The notes beneath the pieces were generated by a model that worked only from the letters and a program-made list of their open reading frames with translations, did not search any database and was not told the origin of the DNA. 64,000 bases of DNA from an archaeon (GTDB lineage Archaea > Aenigmatarchaeota > Aenigmatarchaeia > QMZP01 > JAFGSV01), in assembly GCA_028279705.1 (NCBI GenBank), contig JANQNF010000046.1:81019-145018 (forward strand), in the 5' to 3' direction. Below are positions 4,212 to 59,153 of this stretch, piece by piece; within the stretch, counting starts at the first letter, position 1; the number at the start of each line of letters is the position of its first letter. The position numbers and the translations under genes were made by a program.

Positions 4212-5597
4212 ATGGACTCGGGTATTGAACCTCCGGATTCCGTTCACAGCATCTACATTCCGACTTTTTATGAAGACATGGATTTTGACCCAGGGGTATT
4301 TGTCCAGAACGCGAGAAACTGGGTCGATGACGTTGCCGGGAAGTCAAGCGTTGCCATTCCTGTGAAGAGGAACATCGCTGATTTTGCAGCGTGCCACATA
4401 ATGGAAAAAGTACTTGGGAAGAATCTCCAGAAGGTATATGTGGACGACTGGCTTGAACCTGGTCCATCCAGTACTGGTATCGGAAAAACGTTGATGAAAG
4501 AATTGTACGGCGACATCAATACAGTAAACGTCAGGGAAAATCTCCTTAAAAAACTCGAAGATGCGTTCCCCTCAGAAGAAACGCGCAGGATTTACATGGA
4601 AATCTACAGTAGTGCGCTGAAAAACAAAATAAAGCAACTGGGGACCGAGTTCGTGGCCGATTCCACAATGAATATGGGCAGGTACCCAAACATCGGGGGA
4701 ATGCATAGTGTGGGAAGTGACCCTGAATACAGTAACGTTTTGATGCCGATATACACCCTGGACACGCCGCACCTTCTGCAGGTCATCGATTATCTAATGG
4801 GGGAGCACCCTGAAACTGTCGAAAGGGTATTGAAAAGACCGGAACGTAAGGACATTACAAGAAATGTAACTAATCCCGACCGTGACAAATACGTGGAGAT
4901 AAAGAAAAGGGCACCGCTTCCCCTGACCAGCATGCTGACCGGGATATACGGGGTGTTCAGTAAGGAAAAGCTTTCAACTTCCAAGAAAGTGACGGACAAG
5001 GTGATCTCAGTTGTAGGGAAAAAGTTCACATCCGAGATGAGTGAAGATAAGTGGAAAACACCATACATCTTCACAAGCGTCATGGACCCTGGGATAAAAC
5101 GCTACACCAGTCCATTCATGCGCAAAATACTCCCCTTTGGAGCCGTAAACAAATTCTTCAAGGGCGCGAGGCAGATAGCCGACTGTGGTATAGACTTCTA
5201 CACTCTCCATGATGAATTCTCCGGCACTGACCACGAGACAATATGGATAGAAAGCGAAAAGCCCGTAGAATACCGCAATCTCATAAAACTCAGGAATTAT
5301 CTTGAACAAAACGGCTTTGAGGACATAGTTTACCAGATCCACGACAAAGCCAATGTCGTGCGAAATAAAAGTTACCAGCCAGTGTCTATTAATCTGGGTT
5401 ATGTCGAGATCGACGAGGAATCAGCAGATGCCTGTGACCCTCTCGAGATACTGGGAAAGCTTGGTGACAATTTGAAATATGAGGATTGTGCAAACTGGCC
5501 GTTTAGGAAGGATTGTAATTATTTGTTAACAAGAGCTGGCAATGTTTCGCGTGTCGGTTTCAGGATAAGTAAGATGGACCCTGGCCTCTACCTATGA
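4212..5597 (+). CDS. GMP-synthetase-like PP-ATPase homologue lacking the PP-loop
   Basis: 461 residues. Residues about 25-160 follow the ATP-pyrophosphatase domain of archaeal GMP synthetase (GuaA) in order: a helix DPGVFVQNARNWV; a strand plus loop SSVAIPVKRNIADFAACH where active enzymes have SGGVDSS; LQKVYVDDWLEPG for the VFVDTGLLRKGE strand; and a helical stretch ending GTEFVADSTM for the A-[KE]-YL-x-QGT strand. The extreme C-terminus SRVGFRISKMDP recalls the GuaA dimerisation tail R-V-x-Y-D-I-x-x-K-P-P. The nucleotide-binding SGGxDS signature is absent, so it is probably not an active GMP synthetase. The middle (residues 200-380) I do not recognise. Assignment is by eye only. Confidence 0.55.
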   Translation: MDSGIEPPDSVHSIYIPTFYEDMDFDPGVFVQNARNWVDDVAGKSSVAIPVKRNIADFAACHIMEKVLGKNLQKVYVDDWLEPGPSSTGIGKTLMKELYGDINTVNVRENLLKKLEDAFPSEETRRIYMEIYSSALKNKIKQLGTEFVADSTMNMGRYPNIGGMHSVGSDPEYSNVLMPIYTLDTPHLLQVIDYLMGEHPETVERVLKRPERKDITRNVTNPDRDKYVEIKKRAPLPLTSMLTGIYGVFSKEKLSTSKKVTDKVISVVGKKFTSEMSEDKWKTPYIFTSVMDPGIKRYTSPFMRKILPFGAVNKFFKGARQIADCGIDFYTLHDEFSGTDHETIWIESEKPVEYRNLIKLRNYLEQNGFEDIVYQIHDKANVVRNKSYQPVSINLGYVEIDEESADACDPLEILGKLGDNLKYEDCANWPFRKDCNYLLTRAGNVSRVGFRISKMDPGLYL

Positions 5598-46151: not shown

Positions 46152-46412
46152 ATGGAATGGGAAGATTATAGCTTCATTATACGAGGTAAGACAAGACGTG
46201 AGATTTTCCTCAGTTTGCAGAAACCAAAAACACCATCTCAGATATCAAGAGAGCTTAAAATATCAACTACACACGTAAGTAGGGCTCTCAAGGAGTTTTC
46301 AGACAAAAACCTAGTGAAATGCCTAACTCCTAAAGAGAAATCAGGAAGAGTCTACAAATTGACCGGCAGCGGAGAGAAGATACTCGATACACTGAAAAAC
46401 TCAGGGAATTAG
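46152..46412 (+). CDS. Winged-helix transcription regulator
   Basis: 86 residues. A complete ArsR/MarR-like winged helix: GKTRREIFLSL for helix 1, TPSQISRELKISTTHVSRAL for the helix-turn-helix, and KEKSGRVYKLT for the wing. It is convergent with the left recombinase gene, overlapping its end by four bases, and may belong to the same mobile segment. The start lies after a TATATATGG-like region at the ATG, leaderless. Confidence 0.78.
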   Translation: MEWEDYSFIIRGKTRREIFLSLQKPKTPSQISRELKISTTHVSRALKEFSDKNLVKCLTPKEKSGRVYKLTGSGEKILDTLKNSGN

Positions 46413-46978
46413 GGACTTCCCATTATTCGGTCGTAACTACTTTGCACACTTTCCATACCAGGAGTGCCATACACATCTATTGTTGTTTTGATGCTGGAAT
46501 GCCCAAGAATATTTTGGACAATTTCCATTCTCATACCCTTCTCAAGTGCCATGCGAGCGAATGAGTGCCTGAAAAGGTGTGGGTTTAAATTGTTTTTTCT
46601 TGGATTTGGATGTCTTACACCTGCCACTTTTCCGGCCTTTATGCACACTTCATTTATCTGCTTGAGTGATATCGATTCTGCCTTGTTGCTCTGTATCAAT
46701 TTTCCCTCTTTTCTCTCACCCAGATAAAACCGGACATCCTGCAGCGTGTCCTGATCTACCGGAACGGTCCTGCTCTTGTTACCTTTGCCGTTTCTTATGT
46801 ATATCCTTCTCTTATAGAAGTCTATATCAGTGACTTCAATGTTCCTCAATTCAGCACGTCTCATTCCCGTCTGTGCCAGAATCTTGATTATTATTCTGTC
46901 TCTAAGTGACCCGGCCACAGATATTACCTTTCTTATATCATCTCTCGAAAGATGATATGCAGATTCATTCTCTGACAT
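46409..46978 (-). CDS. Minimal tyrosine recombinase (left)
   Basis: 189 residues, catalytic domain only, without the usual 100-residue core-binding domain. The catalytic set is complete: Arg in TGMRRAEL (about R40), Lys in RNGKGNKSR (about K65), HLFRH (H134, R137), LGHSS (H160) and the nucleophile Tyr in DVYGTP (Y170). The size matches the simple recombinases FimB/FimE that flip promoters. It is about 80% identical by eye to the recombinase at 51774. GAGGTG lies a few bases before the ATG. Its start is 76 bp from the left 58-bp repeat and it reads away from it. Confidence 0.9.
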   Translation of the reverse strand: MSENESAYHLSRDDIRKVISVAGSLRDRIIIKILAQTGMRRAELRNIEVTDIDFYKRRIYIRNGKGNKSRTVPVDQDTLQDVRFYLGERKEGKLIQSNKAESISLKQINEVCIKAGKVAGVRHPNPRKNNLNPHLFRHSFARMALEKGMRMEIVQNILGHSSIKTTIDVYGTPGMESVQSSYDRIMGSP

Positions 46979-47054
46979 ATTTTCACCTCACTTTTGACAA
47001 AAAGTCACATCAATGAAACACTATGCTCATTATGTAACGTTATTGGCAATAGTG

Positions 47055-47112
47055 TATCCATTATGTTACCAAAACGTGACCTTTTGCGCTGTTTAGTAGT
47101 TGAACGCGCTCC
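47055..47112 (+). repeat. Left copy of perfect 58-bp inverted repeat
   Basis: Reverse complement of 51639-51696 with no mismatch. The minus-strand reading contains GTCACGTTTTGGTAAC, an imperfect version of the palindromic site at 51729-51752 next to the right recombinase. Confidence 0.97.
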
Positions 47113-47184
47113 ACACAGAATATAAATCTATATCAAACGTATTAACGATAGATTTATAAGTAATATACCAGATAATAATAGATT

Positions 47185-47418
47185 ATGGTTAAAATAAAAG
47201 TTAGAAATGAAACTAAAAAGGATAGGTTCAAGCGACTTGCAGCAGAAAGAACACAGAAAGTCATAGAAAGAATACGCGTTCTGTCACACTGCTCGAATCC
47301 TTCTCTATACGAATATAGTCAAGACGATGTAAGGAAAATGTTCTGTGTCATAGATAAAGAGTTGAAGATTACAAAATCCAAATTCACCAAACCTCAAAAG
47401 GAGCAATTCAACTTTTAG
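47185..47418 (+). CDS. Small basic protein preceding the GHKL ATPase
   Basis: 77 residues, helical, with KKDRFKRLAAERTQKVIERI and YEYSQDDVRKMFCVIDKELK. No domain I can name with certainty, though the pattern recalls small proteins often found ahead of restriction-modification-type genes. It is eight bases ahead of the ATPase gene, which has its own GGTGAT ribosome site, so they form one operon. A TTTATAAG box lies about 25-32 nt before the ATG, inside the invertible segment. Confidence 0.65.
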   Translation: MVKIKVRNETKKDRFKRLAAERTQKVIERIRVLSHCSNPSLYEYSQDDVRKMFCVIDKELKITKSKFTKPQKEQFNF

Positions 47419-47426
47419 GTGATATT

Positions 47427-50114
47427 ATGAACGAAAAGGAAATACTTGAAAGGCTTTTGGATGTCAAAAAGCAGTCTGAGATAGAGGACATTCTCAATAA
47501 GCTCGATATTGCCGATTCGTCCGGGAGGCCAGATGGTAAGAAGTACATGTGGAGATTTTTGGGTGAAAGTATGAGCAATGCGGCCAACGTTCATACAACA
47601 TCAGTGACAATTGCACCAATAATAGAGAGAATAACAAACTCATTCGATGCACAGATACAGCTCAAAGAACTTTTGGATAACAAAGGAAAGCCGTTAGAAA
47701 AGGGGAAACAACCAAAATCTCCTAGAAAATCTGTTGAAAAGTGGTTCAATATACCTGAAGGCGACACAGCCATAGCTGGGAAACTCATGAAGCCTGCAGA
47801 AAGAACCAGACTCGCAGAAGATATTGTATCGGTAGAGCTCTATAATTCTGATATACCGAAATATCCTACAATCGTAGTAAAGGACTCTGGTATAGGTCAA
47901 CACCCGAGTAACTTCAAAGAGACGCTATTGAGTCTCGGAAGAAGTAATAAGTTTACTTCGCCTCATCTACATGGAACATTTGGTCACGGTGGATCATCAA
48001 CCTACAGGTTCAGTAAGTACACAATCATCTTATCACGTAGAGCAAGCGGTACTGGAGAAGATAATGACGACATAGGTTGGACAATTGTCAGAAAAGATGA
48101 ATCAATGAACGTATGGGACTATATGAACAAAAGAGTAGAAGAAATAGCACAACCGCCAGTCTATGAATATCTTTGTGGGTCGGACGGTGAGATTCCGAGA
48201 ATATCAGGAAAATACGGTAGAGATTTCACGAGAGGAACTTATGTAGCACATATAGAATATAATGCAAAGGAGTGGGAAAATTTGTCCAGGGGTCTGGGAT
48301 TCAGACTCTTTAGAAATTATCTTTTTGATCCAGTTTTGCCATTCAGACTTGTAGACATGAGAGAGGATACACAAGAATTTGCCAGAAACATGTTCGGTGA
48401 CCGATCGATACTGCATGAAGCAGACTATGTAAAATACAATAATGTCGCTGATATGAAGTGGCCAAATGGAGGAAATTTAAAAGTAAGATACTGGCTATTA
48501 CATGACGATAAAAATCCCGCAAATAGACCACTCAAGCTACACTTGGAAAGGGAAAATTCGAGAAACACCATAATAGTTACGCTAAATGGTCAACGACACG
48601 GGTCACTTGAAAGAAATATAATATCAAAGAAATCGAGACTGCCACGTGTTTCTGAGTCACTTTTGGTTCAAGTGGTACTCGATGATCTGCCGAGGGAAGT
48701 CAAAGGTAAGCTTTTTACTTCAGGAAGAGACAAGATGGTCGAAGAGGGAGACGAAATTGAATTACTTGAAAGAAAGCTCATTGATTGTTTTACTGAAGAT
48801 GACAAACTATCTGAATGGGAAGAAAGACTTGGAGACATTAGGATAGAAGAGGACGAGAGTATAAAGCAAGTAAAAACTATGCTAGATAGACTGATAACTA
48901 TTGGAAACGAAGCTGGGATAGGTGGATCAGAAGAGGTAGAAATGCCCGGTGGTACAGGAAAAAAGAAAGAATATATTCCACAGGATCCACCAACGTCCCT
49001 TAGAATGAAAGTTTCCAGTTACCCGATAGAGATAAGGAAAAATGATAAAAAGGTAATACATGTAGAAGTTAACGGTCCAGATGATGTTTTCAGAAGAAGA
49101 AAAAATAGAGGTAACATAGCCGCACTTCTCGATGAAGAACCAGGAATTGAGGTATCGGTACAAACTAGTAAGTTCAAGGACGGGATATTACCCATAACAA
49201 TATTCACTAAAAGAGACGCGGTAGAGTACGATGTTAAAAAAATTAAACTTGTGTTTGAGGCGGATAATCTCCCTAACAAACTGGAATGTGAAGGGAGCTA
49301 TATTGTAACACCAGAAGATACTTATGTCCCTGTAGATCCACCAACAGAATTCAAAATCATGCGTAGCTCGCCTGTAAGACTCAGGATAGGAAAGAATAAC
49401 ACAATTCCGATCTCATTTAATGGACCTAATGATATACTATACAGAACGAAAGAAAAGGCCCAATTCGAAGTTACTTTCGATTACAACTATGCGAAATACG
49501 TAACAAGGCTGGGTCCATATAACGGAAAAATACAAATAGCAATACAAGTCGACGAAAATGCTAAAAATGATGACAAATTTGACTTGTATTGCAAAATGTT
49601 TCTTTCAAATGGAACAGTACTTTCAGATAGAAGGGAATGTATTTTAGTCAAGGAAGATCCAAAAGAAGAGCAGAAAAAAGGCGATATGACTTCCGTTTCT
49701 AGACCTAATTATGATATCAAAAGGATAAGAAGAGATAATTGGGGGCCACTATCCTGGACAGAAGAAAATGTCGGAAAATTTGAAGTAAAGCGTGACGAAG
49801 AAGGAAAAGATAAGTTAATACTTTACATAAATGCGGACAATTACAACATAGACGATGAGAGAAATCGGCGTAAAAGACTTTCAATGGCAGAAAAAACAAT
49901 ACAGCTGCTGGAGAATAAATATGTTGCATATATTGCATTCCACCTTTATCAGCAATTCGAATCGCAAAAATATGAATATCTGGACGATGAAGAAACTCCT
50001 AAGCATGATGAGGATGGTAAGAAATTCACAGAAGATCAACAAGAAGACGAAAGAAGAAGACTATCAAAAACTTTGATACTGTCACTGAGGAGTATGAAGG
50101 ATTTGGAAGATTGA
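47427..50114 (+). CDS. GHKL ATPase of MutL/MORC type
   Basis: 895 residues. The Bergerat ATP fold is near the N-terminus: motif I IIERITNSFDA (Glu67, Asn71), motif II VVKDSGIG (Asp153), motif III GTFGHGGSSTY (about residues 183-193). A transducer-like region and at least two beta domains with the repeated phrase DPPTSLRM / DPPTEFKIM follow (about residues 510 and 635), then a helical C-terminus with a charged coiled coil. MORC/MutL-like ATPases are known partners in prokaryotic restriction-modification systems, where ATP binding closes a clamp on DNA. No nuclease motif is evident to me. It ends one base from the convergent methyltransferase. Confidence 0.8.
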   Translation: MNEKEILERLLDVKKQSEIEDILNKLDIADSSGRPDGKKYMWRFLGESMSNAANVHTTSVTIAPIIERITNSFDAQIQLKELLDNKGKPLEKGKQPKSPRKSVEKWFNIPEGDTAIAGKLMKPAERTRLAEDIVSVELYNSDIPKYPTIVVKDSGIGQHPSNFKETLLSLGRSNKFTSPHLHGTFGHGGSSTYRFSKYTIILSRRASGTGEDNDDIGWTIVRKDESMNVWDYMNKRVEEIAQPPVYEYLCGSDGEIPRISGKYGRDFTRGTYVAHIEYNAKEWENLSRGLGFRLFRNYLFDPVLPFRLVDMREDTQEFARNMFGDRSILHEADYVKYNNVADMKWPNGGNLKVRYWLLHDDKNPANRPLKLHLERENSRNTIIVTLNGQRHGSLERNIISKKSRLPRVSESLLVQVVLDDLPREVKGKLFTSGRDKMVEEGDEIELLERKLIDCFTEDDKLSEWEERLGDIRIEEDESIKQVKTMLDRLITIGNEAGIGGSEEVEMPGGTGKKKEYIPQDPPTSLRMKVSSYPIEIRKNDKKVIHVEVNGPDDVFRRRKNRGNIAALLDEEPGIEVSVQTSKFKDGILPITIFTKRDAVEYDVKKIKLVFEADNLPNKLECEGSYIVTPEDTYVPVDPPTEFKIMRSSPVRLRIGKNNTIPISFNGPNDILYRTKEKAQFEVTFDYNYAKYVTRLGPYNGKIQIAIQVDENAKNDDKFDLYCKMFLSNGTVLSDRRECILVKEDPKEEQKKGDMTSVSRPNYDIKRIRRDNWGPLSWTEENVGKFEVKRDEEGKDKLILYINADNYNIDDERNRRKRLSMAEKTIQLLENKYVAYIAFHLYQQFESQKYEYLDDEETPKHDEDGKKFTEDQQEDERRRLSKTLILSLRSMKDLED

Positions 50115-50115
50115 C

Positions 50116-51228
50116 CTACTTTTCAAGTACGAGTATTCGATCAGTTTCAGTTGCTCTCCCTTTCGTTTCTCCCCATATTCTCGATACTTTACTAGAGTCT
50201 CTAATACGGTCTTCCAGTATAGGTGACGATAAACCAAAACCGACTTTTTTTGCGCAATTTTCCCAAACGAATTCTGCAAGATTGTACACGACATCGCCCT
50301 TATCTCTGCTTTTTACGTCACCAATTATGTACACTGCCTTTGAATTATCTTTTAGAATCCTATAATTCTCCTTTAGTACATCTGTCATGAATTTTTCATA
50401 CTCTGAAAGTGACCCAGAGCAGAAGAGTCTCTTGTCTATATCCTTTCCGTCCTCGCCAAGAAGCCAAAGCCTTATCCAGTTGAAATCACCGTATCTTATT
50501 ACTCTCGTATATGGAGGTGACGTTATTGATAGGTCTATTTCATCGTTATCTATCATATCTAGATTTCTTGCGTCTGAGAGGTAAACTTTACCTTTTACTC
50601 TCACAACTTGATAACATCTATCAAGCTTTTTGTGGAGGAGCTCGAAAGCGTTTCTATTAGGTTTTTCAAGATTGTTTTTTTCTATGTAATTTTTTACATA
50701 ATTGGGTGACATAGAGAATGTGTTCGGCATAGAGATTGAAAGATACCCATTCGAATGACCGTGCATTATACCTAGTAATAGTGCAGTTATGAAAGCGTCT
50801 ACCGAATCTTCCCTCCATTTCAGTTCGTCTTTAAGAAACAAAATTTGACTCAATGTATAATCACTATAAAGCATTCTTATTTTCCAATCAACAGATTCTA
50901 AGTCACATGAATCAGCAGTGTCACCACTGTGCATATTCCATAACTCGTTTATTCTATTCACTATTTCTTGCCTTTCTGGTGTTTCAACTTTAGATTTAGT
51001 GAGTATATAAGCCAAAGGATTCTTATCTATACCAATACCATTTCTTCCCAAAAGGCAAGATTCGAGTGTAGTTGTTCCTCTTCCAGAAAACTGATCCAAA
51101 ACATTCTGTCCCTTCTCGGAATATTTTTTTATGTAGTAATTCGGAATGCATGGGGGGAACATGGCCATATAGCTACATATAGTATGTAGTCTATTTCCCA
51201 TGTTCTTATTTGTGTCACTCCATGCCAT
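50116..51228 (-). CDS. DNA methyltransferase (TSPPY type)
   Basis: 370 residues from the ATG at 51228, which lies just after the zinc-ribbon stop; a longer reading would overlap that gene in another frame. SAM-binding motif I is NVLDQFSGRGTT (about 42-53) followed by GIDKNPLAY; the catalytic motif is SITSPPY (about 234-240). The 180-residue gap between them can hold target recognition. TSPPY enzymes make N4-methylcytosine or N6-methyladenine. With the GHKL ATPase it suggests a methylation-guided defence or regulation system. No classical restriction nuclease is seen. Confidence 0.85.
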   Translation of the reverse strand: MAWSDTNKNMGNRLHTICSYMAMFPPCIPNYYIKKYSEKGQNVLDQFSGRGTTTLESCLLGRNGIGIDKNPLAYILTKSKVETPERQEIVNRINELWNMHSGDTADSCDLESVDWKIRMLYSDYTLSQILFLKDELKWREDSVDAFITALLLGIMHGHSNGYLSISMPNTFSMSPNYVKNYIEKNNLEKPNRNAFELLHKKLDRCYQVVRVKGKVYLSDARNLDMIDNDEIDLSITSPPYTRVIRYGDFNWIRLWLLGEDGKDIDKRLFCSGSLSEYEKFMTDVLKENYRILKDNSKAVYIIGDVKSRDKGDVVYNLAEFVWENCAKKVGFGLSSPILEDRIRDSSKVSRIWGETKGRATETDRILVLEK

Positions 51229-51232
51229 TTCA

Positions 51233-51385
51233 TTACGAGTCAGAATTACCACCGTTTTTTGGTCTATCCCAATAAGGATTCTTGCATTTTGGACACACAC
51301 GCGGATATTCCTTTGATCTGGGTACCCATTCGTGATCACATCTTTCACATTTGTAACCATCGAGCGTTATTTTTGCCATTGCCAT
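51233..51385 (-). CDS. Small zinc-ribbon protein
   Basis: 50 residues. It carries YKCERCDHEWVPR and RVCPKCKNPYWD, two C-x-x-C knuckles (Cys13, 16, 31, 34), the layout of a widespread zinc-ribbon family. A strong GGGAGGT ribosome site lies about nine bases upstream. It directly precedes the methyltransferase gene (four bases between stop and ATG), so the two are co-translated; it may assist target binding. Confidence 0.85.
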   Translation of the reverse strand: MAMAKITLDGYKCERCDHEWVPRSKEYPRVCPKCKNPYWDRPKNGGNSDS

Positions 51386-51638
51386 ATAATTACCTCCCAT
51401 AAGTTAAATATAGATATATTATCTTTAATAATATACATATAATATTATACAATTAATAATATACTATTAGTATTTATAAAGTTTTGCTTTTCTACGCTAA
51501 TTGTGAGCTCGGTATATATGGTAAGAGACCAAAATTGGCTAACTGAACGCATTTTTATTTGGAAATGTAACGCATGTTATCGTTTTTATCAAAATTATTC
51601 ATATCTTTATTCAGATATTCGGACATCAAAATTATTAA

Positions 51639-51696
51639 GGAGCGCGTTCAACTACTAAACAGCGCAAAAGGTCACGTTTTGGTAACATAATGGATA
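51639..51696 (-). repeat. Right copy of perfect 58-bp inverted repeat
   Basis: Reverse complement of 47055-47112; ends 77 bp before the right recombinase start. Confidence 0.97.
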
Positions 51697-51728
51697 TTTT
51701 GTGTCATTATTCGTTACAACTTTAAAGA

Positions 51729-51752
51729 AAAAGTAACGTTTTGGTTACTTTT
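51729..51752 (+). promoter_or_regulatory. Palindromic recombinase-type site upstream of the right recombinase
   Basis: AAAAGTAAC and GTTACTTTT are perfect 9-bp inverted arms around the 6-bp centre GTTTTG. This is the geometry of a tyrosine-recombinase core site, and the same centre occurs inside both 58-bp repeats. It overlaps the probable TATA region of the recombinase gene (CTTTTATTTA), so it may also be an operator through which recombinase controls its own gene. Confidence 0.55.
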
Positions 51753-51773
51753 ATTTAAGGGCGTAACCTAAAT

Positions 51774-52355
51774 ATGTATATGGGAACCACGGAAAACGAG
51801 TCAGTGTATTATCTGACCCGGGAGGAAGTTAAGAAAATTATAACCGTCGCCGGATCTCTCAGGGATAGGGTGATTCTGAAAATCCTTGCAAGAACTGGGA
51901 TGAGACGCGGAGAACTCAGGGATCTTGAAGTGAGGGATTTAGATTTCGAGAAAAGAAGATTGTACATAAGAAGCGGGAAAGGTGATAAGAGTAGAACAGT
52001 TCCCGTAGATTCTGATACGCTACAGGATGTCCGCTTTTACTTGGGTGAACGAAAAGACGGTAAATTGATACAGAGTAATAAGGCAGAATCAATATCACTC
52101 AAGCAAATAAACGAGATATGTGCCAAAACTGGCAAAATGGCTAGGGTAAAGCATCCAAATCCTGCCAAAGAAGAGGTAAATCCACACCTTTTCAGGCATT
52201 CATTTGCACGCTTCATGCTGGAAAAAGGTATGAGAATGGAAGAAGTTCAGAAGGTCCTTGGTCATTCCAGTATCAAGACCACGATGGACGTTTATGGTAC
52301 TCCCGGCATGGAAAGTGTTCAATCTAGTTATGACAGAATTATGGACGAATTGTAA
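51774..52355 (+). CDS. Minimal tyrosine recombinase (right)
   Basis: 193 residues, paralogue of 46409-46978, with the same complete active site: TGMRRGEL, RSGKGDKSR, HLFRHSF, LGHSS and DVYGTPG. The block from TLQDVRFYLGERK to SLKQINE is almost unchanged between the two. Like its partner it lacks the N-terminal core-binding domain. Starts at 51774 or two codons later. It reads outward from the inverted-repeat segment. Confidence 0.9.
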   Translation: MYMGTTENESVYYLTREEVKKIITVAGSLRDRVILKILARTGMRRGELRDLEVRDLDFEKRRLYIRSGKGDKSRTVPVDSDTLQDVRFYLGERKDGKLIQSNKAESISLKQINEICAKTGKMARVKHPNPAKEEVNPHLFRHSFARFMLEKGMRMEEVQKVLGHSSIKTTMDVYGTPGMESVQSSYDRIMDEL

Positions 52356-53534: not shown

Positions 53535-56500
53535 ATGAGTATAGGGCACTCCTCGTGTATACTATTTACTTTTTTCATTTCAGCGCTCCTCATCTTCTCA
53601 TGCACGGTTTCTGCCAAGTCCGATTCTGACGTAAACATAGATCTCGACGACATAAAGGATAAGATAGAGTCTATAGCCCATTACGCAGAGGAGTACGAGA
53701 TAGGAAACATCAACTACCTGCAGCTTAACGTGTACGGTCACCAGATAAGGGCAGACCTAAACGTCATGCTCGGGGGAAGCATTGGTGAAGAGTGGGGAAG
53801 GATACCCCCAGAAAGCATAAAGAAGGTTTTCGGTGAACCAACAGACTACACACACTGGATATGGGTGGAAAACGCCCACCACGACAAAAGGCTTGACGAA
53901 GCAATGCCCTGGTGGGAGAGGGTGGTTTTTGATGGCAGGAAGGTCCAGATCATGTTCAACGCGTTTCCGCACCTGATAGAAAAGGATGGAAAAGAGCACC
54001 TGTTCTACTCGGTAGACCTGAACGTAAAGTTCAAAAAGAGGTTTGAGTTCAATCTGGAGAGCATGCTTTCCGAGATAGCCGACCTTGCTGAAGTCCACAA
54101 CAGGACAAGAAGCCAGGGCAGCGCTGAGACGTTCGTTGAGAAGATGATAGAGTATGAGAGACTTCTCAGGTTCTTCATGGAAAGCAACCTCGAAAACTGC
54201 GTCGAGGTGGTAGGCGATCTTTTCGAGCCAGAGGAGAAGTGGCCAAAGCAGAAGATGGTGCAGTGGGAATTTTCAGTCTACAGCGGCGGGAACCTGGAGA
54301 TTATGGGAAGGATCGACTTCTGCGAGGACTGTGAGTGGCGCTGGATGCACATGGAGCTCAGGCCCGAGTTCAGGGGCCCTGTGAAGATGGACATGTGGAA
54401 GTCCGAATACACGGAATTCGAAAAGGAGTTTGACGAGAAGGAGTATGATAAGTATACTATATACGAGCTTAACGGGCTGCTTGAGAAGGCCGTAAGTGAC
54501 ATGAAGAGATATGCCAGGGAATTCGAGGACAATGAAGATGAAAACGCGATAAAGGAATTGTTCAGGAAAAGGCAGGAAATAGAGATGGTCAACAGGGTGC
54601 TTGACAGGAAGCACAACGAAATGCATGATTTCGACAAGGGGGTGGCAGAAGACATAGAATCCGGCAAGCTTGATGGTCCCGGAGACTGCGAGAACCTTGA
54701 GCGGTGCAGGAAATACTGCGATTTCTATGAGAATCATGAAGAATGCAGGGACTTCATGTACGAACTGCGCGTGGACTACCTCGACGAGCTGTTCGGCGAA
54801 TATGACGTCAACAAGATAGTGCTCGAGCAGGTCGAGTGGGAGAAGAGGCTTTTTGAGGAGGTCGAGACCCATCAGGAGAGCTGGTGCAGGCACGCAAGGG
54901 ACATCCAGTGCGAGGACGATGAGGGATGCGTAGACGCCAAGTGTGTACCGGCGCTTGGAGGCGATGAGACGTGCGACAATGGTATGGATGACGACGGTGA
55001 CAACGTTGTTGACTGCCAGGACCCGGACTGCTGGGAAGAAAGACACTGCGGCAAGCTGTGCGAGGGAGTGTGCGACCGTGACGGTGGATGCTGGGAAACC
55101 GTGCACGAAACGTGCTCTGGCAAGTGCAGTGAATGCTGGGAATGCCACGAGACCGGCGACGGTGAGAAGTGCCATGAGATATGTGAAAAGGAATGCCACC
55201 CATGCCACGACAGCGACACCATACGAAACGCCTGTGAGGATTGCTGGACCTGCGAGGATGAGGCCTATGGCGGATGCCACGTCGCCTGTAAGCCATGTGA
55301 GGAATGCAGCCGCAAAAGGGACGCAACAGTCGAGAGCATATTCGCCGAAGTAAGGAGCGGAAACATTGAGACTCCGGGTAACTGCATGTCCGAAGATGAG
55401 TGCCACAGGTTCTGCCATGAGAACAACTTCGGGGACTGCTGGGAGATGCTTGAAAAGATAGGGCTCACTGGGGAAGACCTTGACTGCGGCCAGGATTGCA
55501 AGGAATGCACGATATGTAACTATGAAAACGGGGACTTCCAGTGCATGCCAAACCAGGCGTTCAACATGGAAGAAGGATACTGCGAATGTGAGAGCGCCAC
55601 ATTCGACTGCGACGGTATCTGGGACAATGGCTGCGAGTCGATAGCGCCATGCGAAGGCGGGCCCTGCATGGAGGAGTGCAAGGAATGCGACAAATGCTGG
55701 CAGGACAACGAGTGCGACTACCACCTGGACGAGTGCATGGCCAAGTGCGACAGCGAGGACAGGACTTGCACTGAGGTGTGCGAAACTGCAAGGAACGAGT
55801 GTCACAACGAGTGTAATGAGCTCTGCCCGCAGTGCAACATCTGCAGGAACCCTGACCTTCCAACATACATCTGCGACGGCGTCGAGCAGCTGGAGCCATG
55901 TCAGGTCGAATACATATGTAACGGCGTCAGGCAGTTCAAGCCCTGTGAGATATACATCTGTGACGGAAAGGAGTACACTGAACCGTGCGACGAGATAAAC
56001 GTCACCTGCGGCGAGAACCAGGTGCTGGACGGGGACAACACGTGCGTCTGCGAGGAGGGCTACAAGGACTGCGACAACGATGGCAACTGCGAGCCGACCA
56101 TTTCATGCGGCTATGAGATATGTAACGACAACGAGGACAATAATGACGACGGTCTCATCGACTGCATGGATTCCACCTGTAACAACGTGATATGCGGCTC
56201 TGACGAGAGCACAGGTAAGATGCTGGTATGCATAGAAAGGAGGTGTTCTGACCCGGAAACTGTTATTATACCAATAGAAGTGTCCGTGTGCGGAAACCAT
56301 ATATGCGAGAACGATGAAAGTGAGGAATCCTGCCCAGAGGACTGCGTAATCTGCGAGGTACACCACCCGCCTGACTGCCCGAATGGTAAGATCATATGGA
56401 AAGGCAAGGACCAGTTCGGCTGCCATTTCCCGCCCATATGCGTGGTAACTGAGGAAATGTGCGAGGTGGACGATGACTGCCCGCAGCCGCCCTGCGGGGT

Positions 56501-59153
56501 TTCTCAGTGTATCGGTGGTGAGTGTAAGGTTACGGAACTGACAGCAGACTGCGAGGAAGGATGCACTGAAGGCAAGAAGAAAAAGAGGCAGTGCAGCGAC
56601 GGGTCCGAAATAACGACAGCCATATGTTCATCACACAGGTGGATAGAAACAGGCCACGACTGCGCTGAGGCCGGGGCCGCGCCGATACCGTCTCCAGTCA
56701 CAGGCGGTTCTTCTTCTACGCCTTCTGCACCCGCTCCAGAAGAGCCAGCTGCAGGAGAACCTGAGGAACCTGCCGCACCGGAAGAGCCTGACGAGGAGCC
56801 CGAACCAGAAGTGACCGAGGACGAGACTGTCGAGCCAGAAGAAGAACCGGAAACCCCGGAAGAGCCGCCCGAAGGTGAGGTGAGCGAGGCTGAAGAGGAA
56901 GTCGCAGGAGAGGAAGATGTTACTGAAGAGGATGTAGCAGCAGAACCCGAAGAGGAGGAAGAGGAACCGGAAGCTACGGAACCTGAGATTGCGCCCGAAG
57001 TGGAAGAGGAAGATGAGGAAATAGAGGATGAATGCAGGCTGGCATCAGACTGCGGCGGTCCGCAGGACGTGTGCTCAAACGGCAACTGCGTTACCCTGCC
57101 GATAAAAGTCGAGGAGGAACCGGAGCATACGCCTGAACCGGTACCAGAACCCGAACCTGAGCCAGAGCCTGAAGTGGTCGAAGCTGAGCCGGAAGTAGAA
57201 GAGCCCGAGCAGCCCGAGACTGAGGAAGCACCTGCTCCTGAAGAACCAGAAGAAGAACCCGTTGCTGCACCTGAACCGGAACCCGAGCCGGAGCCTGAAC
57301 CTGAGCCAGAGCCGGAACCAGCACCTGAACCGGAACCCGAGCCCGAACCTGAAGGGCCACCCACGGGACAGATCACAGGGCAGGCTGTATCACTTTTCGA
57401 CGTGTTTTCCGGATGGTTCACCGGACTTGCCGCCGGTGATGATGAGAGGGAGGAGATCAAGCACAAGTGCGACGACGAGTGCGAACCCTGCTGGAACTGC
57501 TGGGAAGACTTCAACATGCTAATGGATGATATAGAAAACGGAAAAGTTGACGGTCCAAACGATTGCTCCGAAAGGATGGAATGCGAAGAATATTGCCACA
57601 AGTGGGAGAACCAGGGAGATTGTAACGACTTTGCGAAAGATCACGGCATGGAAGTTTGGAACTGCTGGGACACGTTCTGCCAGCCATGTGAGATATGCAG
57701 GTACGAAAGTGGCGAGATGAAATGCAACGCCAACCAGTATTTTGATTTCGAACAGGCCCACTGCGACTGCGAAGAGGGATGGTCTGATTGCGACGGTGAC
57801 TGGGACAACGGGTGCGAAAAGTCCGGAGATGACTGCACGGGATGCCAGAGCAAGTCAGACTGTGCATCAGACAGGTGCGCTCCCTGGGGAAACGTCATCC
57901 AGCAGTTCGACTGCGAGAAGGGTGAGGAATGGACCCATGAGAAATCCATGGTAAGCTTCAGGGCAACGTGCAGGATGTACCCAGGAAAGCGCACCGAAGG
58001 ATGGGCACACTTTGACATGTGGGGCGAGGAAGCGTTTGAGGACCTAAGGCGCCTGTGGGAAGAAAAGGAAAGGGAATTTGGAGACGAATGGTGCCTTTAC
58101 GATCTTGAAAACGCGATAAAGAAGAGGCATGAGATACAGGAATCGTTCGACGAGGAGTTCGTGAAATGGTTCTTTGAGGACCACGTGCCTTCATCGCCCG
58201 ATGAATGGGACAAGCAGATGGGCGGCATCTTCGACTCGTACTGGAGGATAGTTGACACAAACAGGGAGACTGCAGAAAGGATGCTTTGTGCCGGACTGAC
58301 CGATATACCTGAAGGTTATGAACCCATTGACATAAGCTACGACACAGAATACGGTTCTGTGAGGATATGGGAAGTGGAGACCACCACAAGCATGTTCGGC
58401 GAACCCGTAAGGATATTCTCACCTTACATGCAAATATGGATATTCCCAACAAAGGAGTTCATGAAACAGGAATTCCAGGATGCCATGGAAAAGGGTATGA
58501 TGCCAGGGCCTGAAGGAAAGGAGAAACCCGAGATGTCGCCAAGCGACATAGAGAAGATGAGGAAAGATCCGACTGCTATGGGTACGCTGAGTTCCATAAT
58601 GGACAAGTACGGCGGAGAAGGCACTTTCTTGTTCAGGGTAGTGGACGGGCAGGAGACGGTCTTCAACGCGCTCGTCACGGTAAATGATGAAGTGCTACTC
58701 AAGATGGAGCCAATGGAAGAGTACGGTGGAGATTATGACGCCATGATGGAAGTGGATTTCGACTTCTTCTACGACCTCATACAGACAGTTGAAAAAGACA
58801 TGCAGGGAGGTCACACCGAATACCCGCCATGGGAACGGGACAATTTCAGGGTCGGTGATGTGTTCAAGGGGACGGTGGACGGCCTGAGGATATGGTGGTT
58901 TATCAATTCCGGCATAATGAGCGGGAAGATACGTGCAGAACCTTCTGATGCCCTCGGTGACGGCCTTTCGATAATGCAGATGATGTTTGAGCGCGGCGGT
59001 CCGGATGACCGTGAAGGTGGAAAGGACCGCGGTGAAGGAAAGGGTATGGAAGAAGGTGGTCATGGTGAAGGAGAAGGTCCCGGCGGCGGGGAAGGACGAG
59101 GCGAAGGCGGCCAGGAAAAACAGGGAGACGGTAAGGGACCAAGACCGTTCTGA
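53535..59153 (+). CDS. Giant cysteine-rich secreted surface protein
   Basis: 1872 residues. Signal peptide ([12 protein letters not shown]), then a charged N-terminal domain; from about residue 375 cysteines are very dense. There are three copies of a module D-I/V-x-x-G-x-x-D-G-P-x-D/N-C (near 54660, 55350 and 57530), two DNDGD-type calcium loops ending V/I-DC-x-D-x-x-C (near residues 480 and 865), an acidic Glu/Pro linker (about 1055-1273), a short hydrophobic segment with [10 protein letters not shown], a second cysteine-rich part, and a C-terminal domain that echoes the N-terminal one ([15 protein letters not shown] versus [17 protein letters not shown]). The end is Gly/Glu-rich. It is probably a cell-surface or matrix protein; binding partner unknown. 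Confidence 0.75.
57139..57354 (+). repeat. Low-complexity Glu-Pro coding repeat
   Basis: Codons alternate Glu (GAA/GAG) and Pro (CCN) in runs of up to ten pairs, with Ala and Val breaks. This codes an extended acidic linker within the giant protein. On the other strand it opens long false frames. Confidence 0.8.

Follow-up and report, generated by a model that had tools for sequence, protein, structure and literature searches.

We identified a locus in the genome of an uncultivated archaeon of the Aenigmatarchaeota (1.9 Mb in 88 contigs) in which four cargo genes lie between perfect inverted repeats, with a recombinase gene outside each repeat. On balance, and with moderate confidence, we read this locus as an archaeal cargo cassette resembling a dif module, exchangeable and able in principle to invert. 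This reading has direct support in a core site, in repeats that end at the spacer of that site, in a different cargo in a genome of the same genus, in promoter motifs internal to the block and in purifying selection on the recombinases; from these we infer recombination between the two sites, and activity today. The features of the locus in the window (the whole 64,000-nucleotide stretch of DNA that was analysed) are as follows.

46409 to 46978, minus strand: recombinase L, a 189-aa catalytic-only XerA-like tyrosine recombinase, reading outward
46979 to 47054, minus strand: leader of recombinase L, with a degenerate outer arm CACTATTGC and a half-site GTTACATAA, lacking a TATA box
47055 to 47112, minus strand: left 58-bp inverted repeat, its outer end carrying the spacer TATCCA and the inner arm TTATGTTAC of a dif-like core
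47153 to 47159, plus strand: predicted TATA box, internal to the repeats, for the operon of small protein and GHKL ATPase
47185 to 47418, plus strand: 77-aa basic protein, lacking a Pfam match
47427 to 50114, plus strand: 895-aa paraMORC-like GHKL ATPase, with N-box and DxGxG intact
50116 to 51225, minus strand: amino-DNA methyltransferase of the TSPPY type, in which motif I (FSGRGTT) precedes TSPPY
51233 to 51400, minus strand: 55-aa zinc-ribbon protein
51474 to 51480, minus strand: predicted TATA box of the zinc-ribbon/methyltransferase operon, inside the repeats
51639 to 51696, plus strand: right 58-bp inverted repeat
51682 to 51705, plus strand: right dif-like core GTAACATAA-TGGATA-TTTTGTGTC, whose spacer closes with the final base of the repeat
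51728 to 51759, plus strand: second palindrome GTAACGTTTTGGTTAC and TATA TTTTATTTAAG before recombinase R, conserved in relatives
51774 to 52355, plus strand: recombinase R, a 193-aa catalytic-only XerA-like tyrosine recombinase

The two arms of the repeat are 58 nt long, 100% complementary and 4526 nt apart, a match that is far beyond chance, and the repeat occurs in just two copies in the whole 1.9-Mb genome. Its identity breaks off sharply at either end. Both recombinase ORFs are directed away from the repeats, with starts at distances of 76 and 77 bp from them. In these respects our analysis confirms the preliminary description, which had reported a perfect 58-bp inverted repeat with outward-reading recombinases at that distance; its account of the cargo (a small basic protein, a GHKL ATPase, a TSPPY methyltransferase and a zinc ribbon) holds as well, with the refinements given below.

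Upstream of recombinase R and of its counterparts in five relatives, 91-99 bp from the start codon in these six genomes, lies a 9-6-9 core of inverted arms, GTTACAAAA-TGnATA-TTTTGTAAC. The right repeat terminates in GTAACATAA-TGGATA, after which a good outer arm, TTTTGTGTC, completes the core on that side. The left repeat carries the same inner arm and the identical spacer, followed by the degenerate outer arm CACTATTGC. The repeats are thus identical through the spacer, with the first mismatch at the next base, and beyond it the leaders of recombinases L and R have little in common; on the inner side they run 43 bp past arm and spacer. By analogy with dif, the repeat ends appear to coincide with the crossover point expected of a tyrosine recombinase. 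The repeats, bounded by this inferred crossover, are younger than the recombinase pair, because they are 100% identical over 58 bp, whereas the two proteins share 77% of their residues and their genes 43% of third codon positions. As first and second positions together are 86% identical, the pattern of divergence is that of an old split under purifying selection. We read the repeat boundary as the mark of a site-specific joining rather than of a single event that duplicated gene and site together, with gene conversion as a possible alternative source of the identity between the repeats.

Perfect, long terminal repeats bounding a cargo are also what a DNA transposon would show had it come by chance to lie between two recombinase genes. 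The block, however, contains no transposase, its flanks show no target duplication (the left ends CAATAGTG, the right begins TTTTGTGT), the outer end of the repeat is the recombinase core itself and the genome holds two copies only, so that we regard a transposon as extremely improbable. A DDE transposon was rejected for its missing transposase and target-site duplication, and an integron because the genome has two repeats (no attC array) and the match to XerA is stronger than that to integron integrase.

Both recombinases match Phage_integrase at about 1e-31 to 1e-34 and retain the catalytic residues R..K..HxxR..H..Y, and at 189 and 193 aa they comprise hardly more than the catalytic domain of a tyrosine recombinase. 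The best curated family for both is archaeal XerA (E values of 3e-45 and 5e-44), matched over the catalytic half only: against the XerA model NF040815 they score 154.7 and 150.9 bits, below its cut-off of 220, over model positions of about 90-263. The Fim-type analogy drawn in the preliminary description does not fit these proteins, as Fim-type invertases score about 1e-11 to 1e-12 against them. The host genome also encodes a 322-aa XerA-like protein that is apparently full-length. Recombinase R is nearer to the copy in a genome of the same genus, G002 (89% identity), than to recombinase L. The recombinase tree gives no firm branching order for R, L and the G002 copies. The palindrome GTAACGTTTTGGTTAC and TATA TTTTATTTAAG upstream of recombinase R probably constitute an autoregulated promoter.

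This recombinase clade occurs in 6 of 156 genomes of the phylum. In the five relatives (G002, G033, G007, G025 and G010) the gene is single-copy and accompanied by one core; identities are 81-89% for G002 and G033, 73% for G007 and G025, and 59% for the partial G010 protein. The four nearest recombinase relatives come from genomes labelled Candidatus Aenigmatarchaeota, one of them in the genus of the host. Across nine genomes, a search for the core at one mismatch or fewer returned no match beyond the recombinase-linked sites, and at three or fewer it returned the known sites and a few weak extras, with zero hits for the reversed control in both cases. Two candidates were discarded: a second core in the host's own genome (C35:156158, two mismatches) that lies inside a small ORF, and a single match in viral contigs, inside an unrelated ORF, which we attribute to chance. 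The right core agrees with E. coli dif at 18 of 28 positions, a level reached by 3 of the 63,972 28-mers of the window.

More distant minimal recombinases in the same order have a core of their own, GTCCGAAAA-N6-TTTTCGGAC, one per genome, which sits just upstream of the recombinase gene where examined (L155:6310-6333, L156, L158 and others). Since two core families lie beside minimal recombinases, a small Xer-like gene paired with a site of its own recurs as a module, in the manner of XerS/difSL and XerH/difH. Several further observations concern the surroundings of these modules. The winged-helix gene that precedes the GTTAC-type core often precedes the GTCCGAAAA-N6-TTTTCGGAC core too. A single half-site of the second core type, CGGACAT, lies upstream of the GTTAC-type core at 51620-51626 of the window, L039:9882, L041:334 and L144:6739, as if one recombinase-site module had been replaced by, or inserted beside, one of the other type. 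Among the loci compared, the 12-mer AAAGTGAGACTT is found near these recombinases only (L040:3117-3128 and 4843-4854, L041:1264 and L144:6712), and in L040 it forms an inverted pair around the unit. Two genomes encode a fusion of a tyrosine recombinase with a protein that looks PD-ExK-like by eye, and in two others this protein is separate and sits just downstream of the minimal recombinase (L006:1444-2820, on contig C35 of the host's own genome; L039:16866-18239; L042:10590-11165; L041:1161-1652).

The same site adjoins other cargo in G002. Next to the same core and a recombinase 89% identical to R, this genome has a Dam-type D12 adenine methyltransferase together with an HNH/Mrr_N nuclease; both lie inward of the core, as the cargo of the window does. 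Downstream follow a HEPN protein and a nucleotidyltransferase and then the 3' remnant of a second recombinase; the HEPN/nucleotidyltransferase pair (L039:10577-11717), lying between the intact recombinase and the remnant, is a second case of small-gene cargo. The gene before the core in G025, G010 and G033 is instead one for a winged-helix protein. No second inverted site is present in G002. The preliminary description had named a single orientation in all reads and relatives, together with repeats that also flank unrelated cargo, as signs of a fixed composite element; the second of these signs holds in part, with unrelated cargo accompanying the same core and recombinase in G002, beside one site rather than between two. 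It counts against an exchangeable cassette that different defence cargo is seen in just this one relative, and that the difference between two genomes could reflect ordinary gene turnover.

The preliminary description proposed that the block inverts as a whole and thereby switches the expression of a methylation-linked defence module. Inversion itself is mechanically plausible, given the inverse sites, their identical 6-bp spacers and two intact recombinases adjoining them, and inversion by tyrosine recombinases is known in archaeal viruses, from the tail fibres of phiCh1/phiH1 (PMC6471424). It is the switching that our results do not support. The TATA motifs of both cargo operons, at 47153 (plus strand) and 51480 (minus strand), lie inside the repeats, and neither a gene nor a promoter, whole or partial, straddles either repeat. 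A flip would leave the cargo operons intact because both TATA boxes are inside; it would carry promoters and genes together and by itself would not switch the cargo. Of the features that define invertons, the locus has flanking inverted repeats and a site-specific recombinase, whereas an inversion that reconnects a promoter or swaps coding ends is absent at the level of motifs. As the recombinases are also XerA-like rather than Fim-like, and G002 combines a single intact recombinase and a single site with different cargo, we disfavour an on-off switch of the methyltransferase/GHKL module and consider it quite improbable.

Recombinase L is the sole gene whose expression might plausibly, if weakly, depend on a flip. 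No TATA box lies between the left repeat and its start, where relatives have one between core and start. A TATA-like TTTATAT at 47126 (minus strand) would start transcription inside the repeat and read through into the gene, and there is no equivalent motif near the right repeat, so the left end of the block could supply a promoter that flipping removes. This is, however, one weak motif in AT-rich DNA, and a switch for recombinase L only is very improbable. A broader version, which we consider unlikely, is a chromosomal archaeal inversion system: two divergent Xer recombinases of the catalytic-only type would flip and exchange whole defence-type blocks, using one dif-like site apiece, and inversion would set the expression of recombinase L.

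The main rival to the cassette is a fixed or fossil composite, in which site-specific recombination in the past brought modules and cargo together, the left site then decayed and the whole is now immobile. The degenerate left outer arm would fit such decay, as would the loss of the conserved TATA promoter of recombinase L, and both repeats lie within one continuous 145-kb contig, a weak argument against a mixed population flipping at high frequency. Yet both recombinases are intact, with all catalytic residues and a divergence shaped by purifying selection, and the 58-bp repeats remain perfect; we think a fixed composite somewhat unlikely. In the genomes compared, we saw no excised, empty or flipped form of the block, a point against the cassette.

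Turning to the cargo, the two operons converge in the middle of the block, the small protein and GHKL ATPase on the plus strand meeting the zinc ribbon and methyltransferase on the minus strand. The methyltransferase ORF was listed with a start at 51360, which makes it overlap the zinc-ribbon gene; the likely start is 51225, so that zinc ribbon and methyltransferase form one operon. The enzyme matches PF01555 at 9.7e-18 and the PADLOC type II MTase at 1e-36; its homologues occur on plasmids and in prophages of mycoplasmas. The GHKL protein has a weak Pfam match (4.7e-4), with its N-box and DxGxG motifs intact in an alignment with six homologues, and over its N-terminal half it is locally 24-27% identical to plasmid proteins of bacteria and haloarchaea. 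We found no such gene in the other 155 genomes of the phylum searched, no relatives in IMG/VR or in phages and no match of its profile to solved structures. In the records examined, plasmid homologues of the GHKL protein or of the methyltransferase do not have the other nearby. This locus, together with the general association of GHKL ATPases with restriction-modification (PMC2292703, PMC8011034), suggests that the two proteins are partners, and the cargo may be defensive. Bacterial plasmid homologues of the GHKL protein (L034, L035 and L037) lie near genes annotated as PAPS reductase, DndB or sensor histidine kinase, surroundings that point to DNA modification or defence.

The cargo block was likely, if unproven, acquired from elsewhere. 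GC content here is 36.8%, whereas equal-length stretches of the window outside the locus average 45.9% (s.d. 4.6); composition is weak evidence of acquisition, because the left flank, at 38.4%, is nearly as low. A search for a tRNA target at the locus found none. Just downstream, at 53535-59153 of the window, lies a gene of 53% GC for an 1872-aa cysteine-rich, repeat-laden protein with a signal-like N terminus.

For the cassette we envisage the following mechanism. Each recombinase gene and the dif-like core just upstream of it would form a self-contained module, like xerS-difSL, and two such modules of different age and opposite orientation would enclose the methyltransferase/GHKL block, itself acquired laterally. 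A crossover at the 6-bp spacer would join new cargo to the same recombinase-proximal half-site and so exchange the cargo, and the inversely oriented pair with its identical spacers could also invert the block, whose cargo would be transcribed from promoters within it whichever way it lies. Provided that binding to the degenerate outer arm of the left site persists, inversion is to be expected, because identical inverse spacers let Acinetobacter dif modules invert and rearrange (PMC13141974); the state of that arm also means that the site pair may recombine poorly. If the mechanism is true, the cargo exchange typical of dif modules, described mainly on Acinetobacter plasmids, would extend to a DPANN archaeon and be linked to methylation or defence genes. 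The small recombinase-plus-site modules defined here, of about 190 aa with a 24-bp core, in two sequence types and with one core per genome, would be simple to assay in vitro and might find use as compact recombination tools for archaea.

Among known systems, the haloviruses phiCh1, phiH1 and ChaoS9 have tail-fibre modules in which a tyrosine recombinase inverts an archaeal gene segment (PMC6471424). There, the recombinase is central and tail-fibre gene sequence is exchanged, whereas in the window the recombinases lie outside and whole operons are enclosed with their promoters. These tail-fibre inversions are the only archaeal invertible systems in the literature covered, which included few subscription papers. 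In MORC/paraMORC restriction-modification neighbourhoods (PMC2292703, PMC8011034), as in the window, a GHKL ATPase with intact motifs adjoins a DNA methyltransferase in a laterally mobile context; the window differs in that no helicase or endonuclease was recognised among its four cargo genes, and its GHKL protein, about 20-25% identical to bacterial relatives, carries no paraMORC subfamily assignment.

Archaeal XerA/dif (PMC2958812, PMC8371274) is the closest protein family and shares the two arms and 6-bp dif-like spacer, but in the window the catalytic half alone matches, the site lies beside the gene and the distribution is accessory; archaeal families that consist of the integrase domain alone had already been noted in a FEMS review. 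XerS/difSL and XerH/difH (PMC5357621) resemble the window in that a recombinase gene adjoins its own inverted-arm site, here in six genomes, and one type of recombinase serves both arms. Those proteins, however, are about 355 aa long and resolve chromosome dimers, whereas the type found here is about 190 aa, lacks the N-terminal domain, is sporadic and is not the sole Xer of the host genome.

The closest likeness is to the pdif modules of Acinetobacter (PMC13141974, PMC6449649), in which accessory genes, such as those for resistance or toxin-antitoxin functions, lie between inverse Xer sites with 6-bp spacers. There, inverse dif sites that share the same spacer are documented to recombine with inversion (PMC13141974), and exchange also occurs between sites with the same spacer; the two spacers of the window are identical. 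As in pdif modules, different cargo is found at equivalent sites, on the evidence of one relative (G002). Of the two sites in the window, the right one is complete, and the left one has an inner arm and spacer with a degenerate outer arm. The pdif sites are 28 bp long, lie on plasmids and are mobilised in trans by XerC/XerD; the window, in an archaeal host, has 58-bp repeats, which run 43 bp past arm and spacer, and two catalytic-only recombinases encoded at the sites and flanking the module. We consider that the locus works like a dif module and do not class it as a member, because it carries its own recombinases at its sites.
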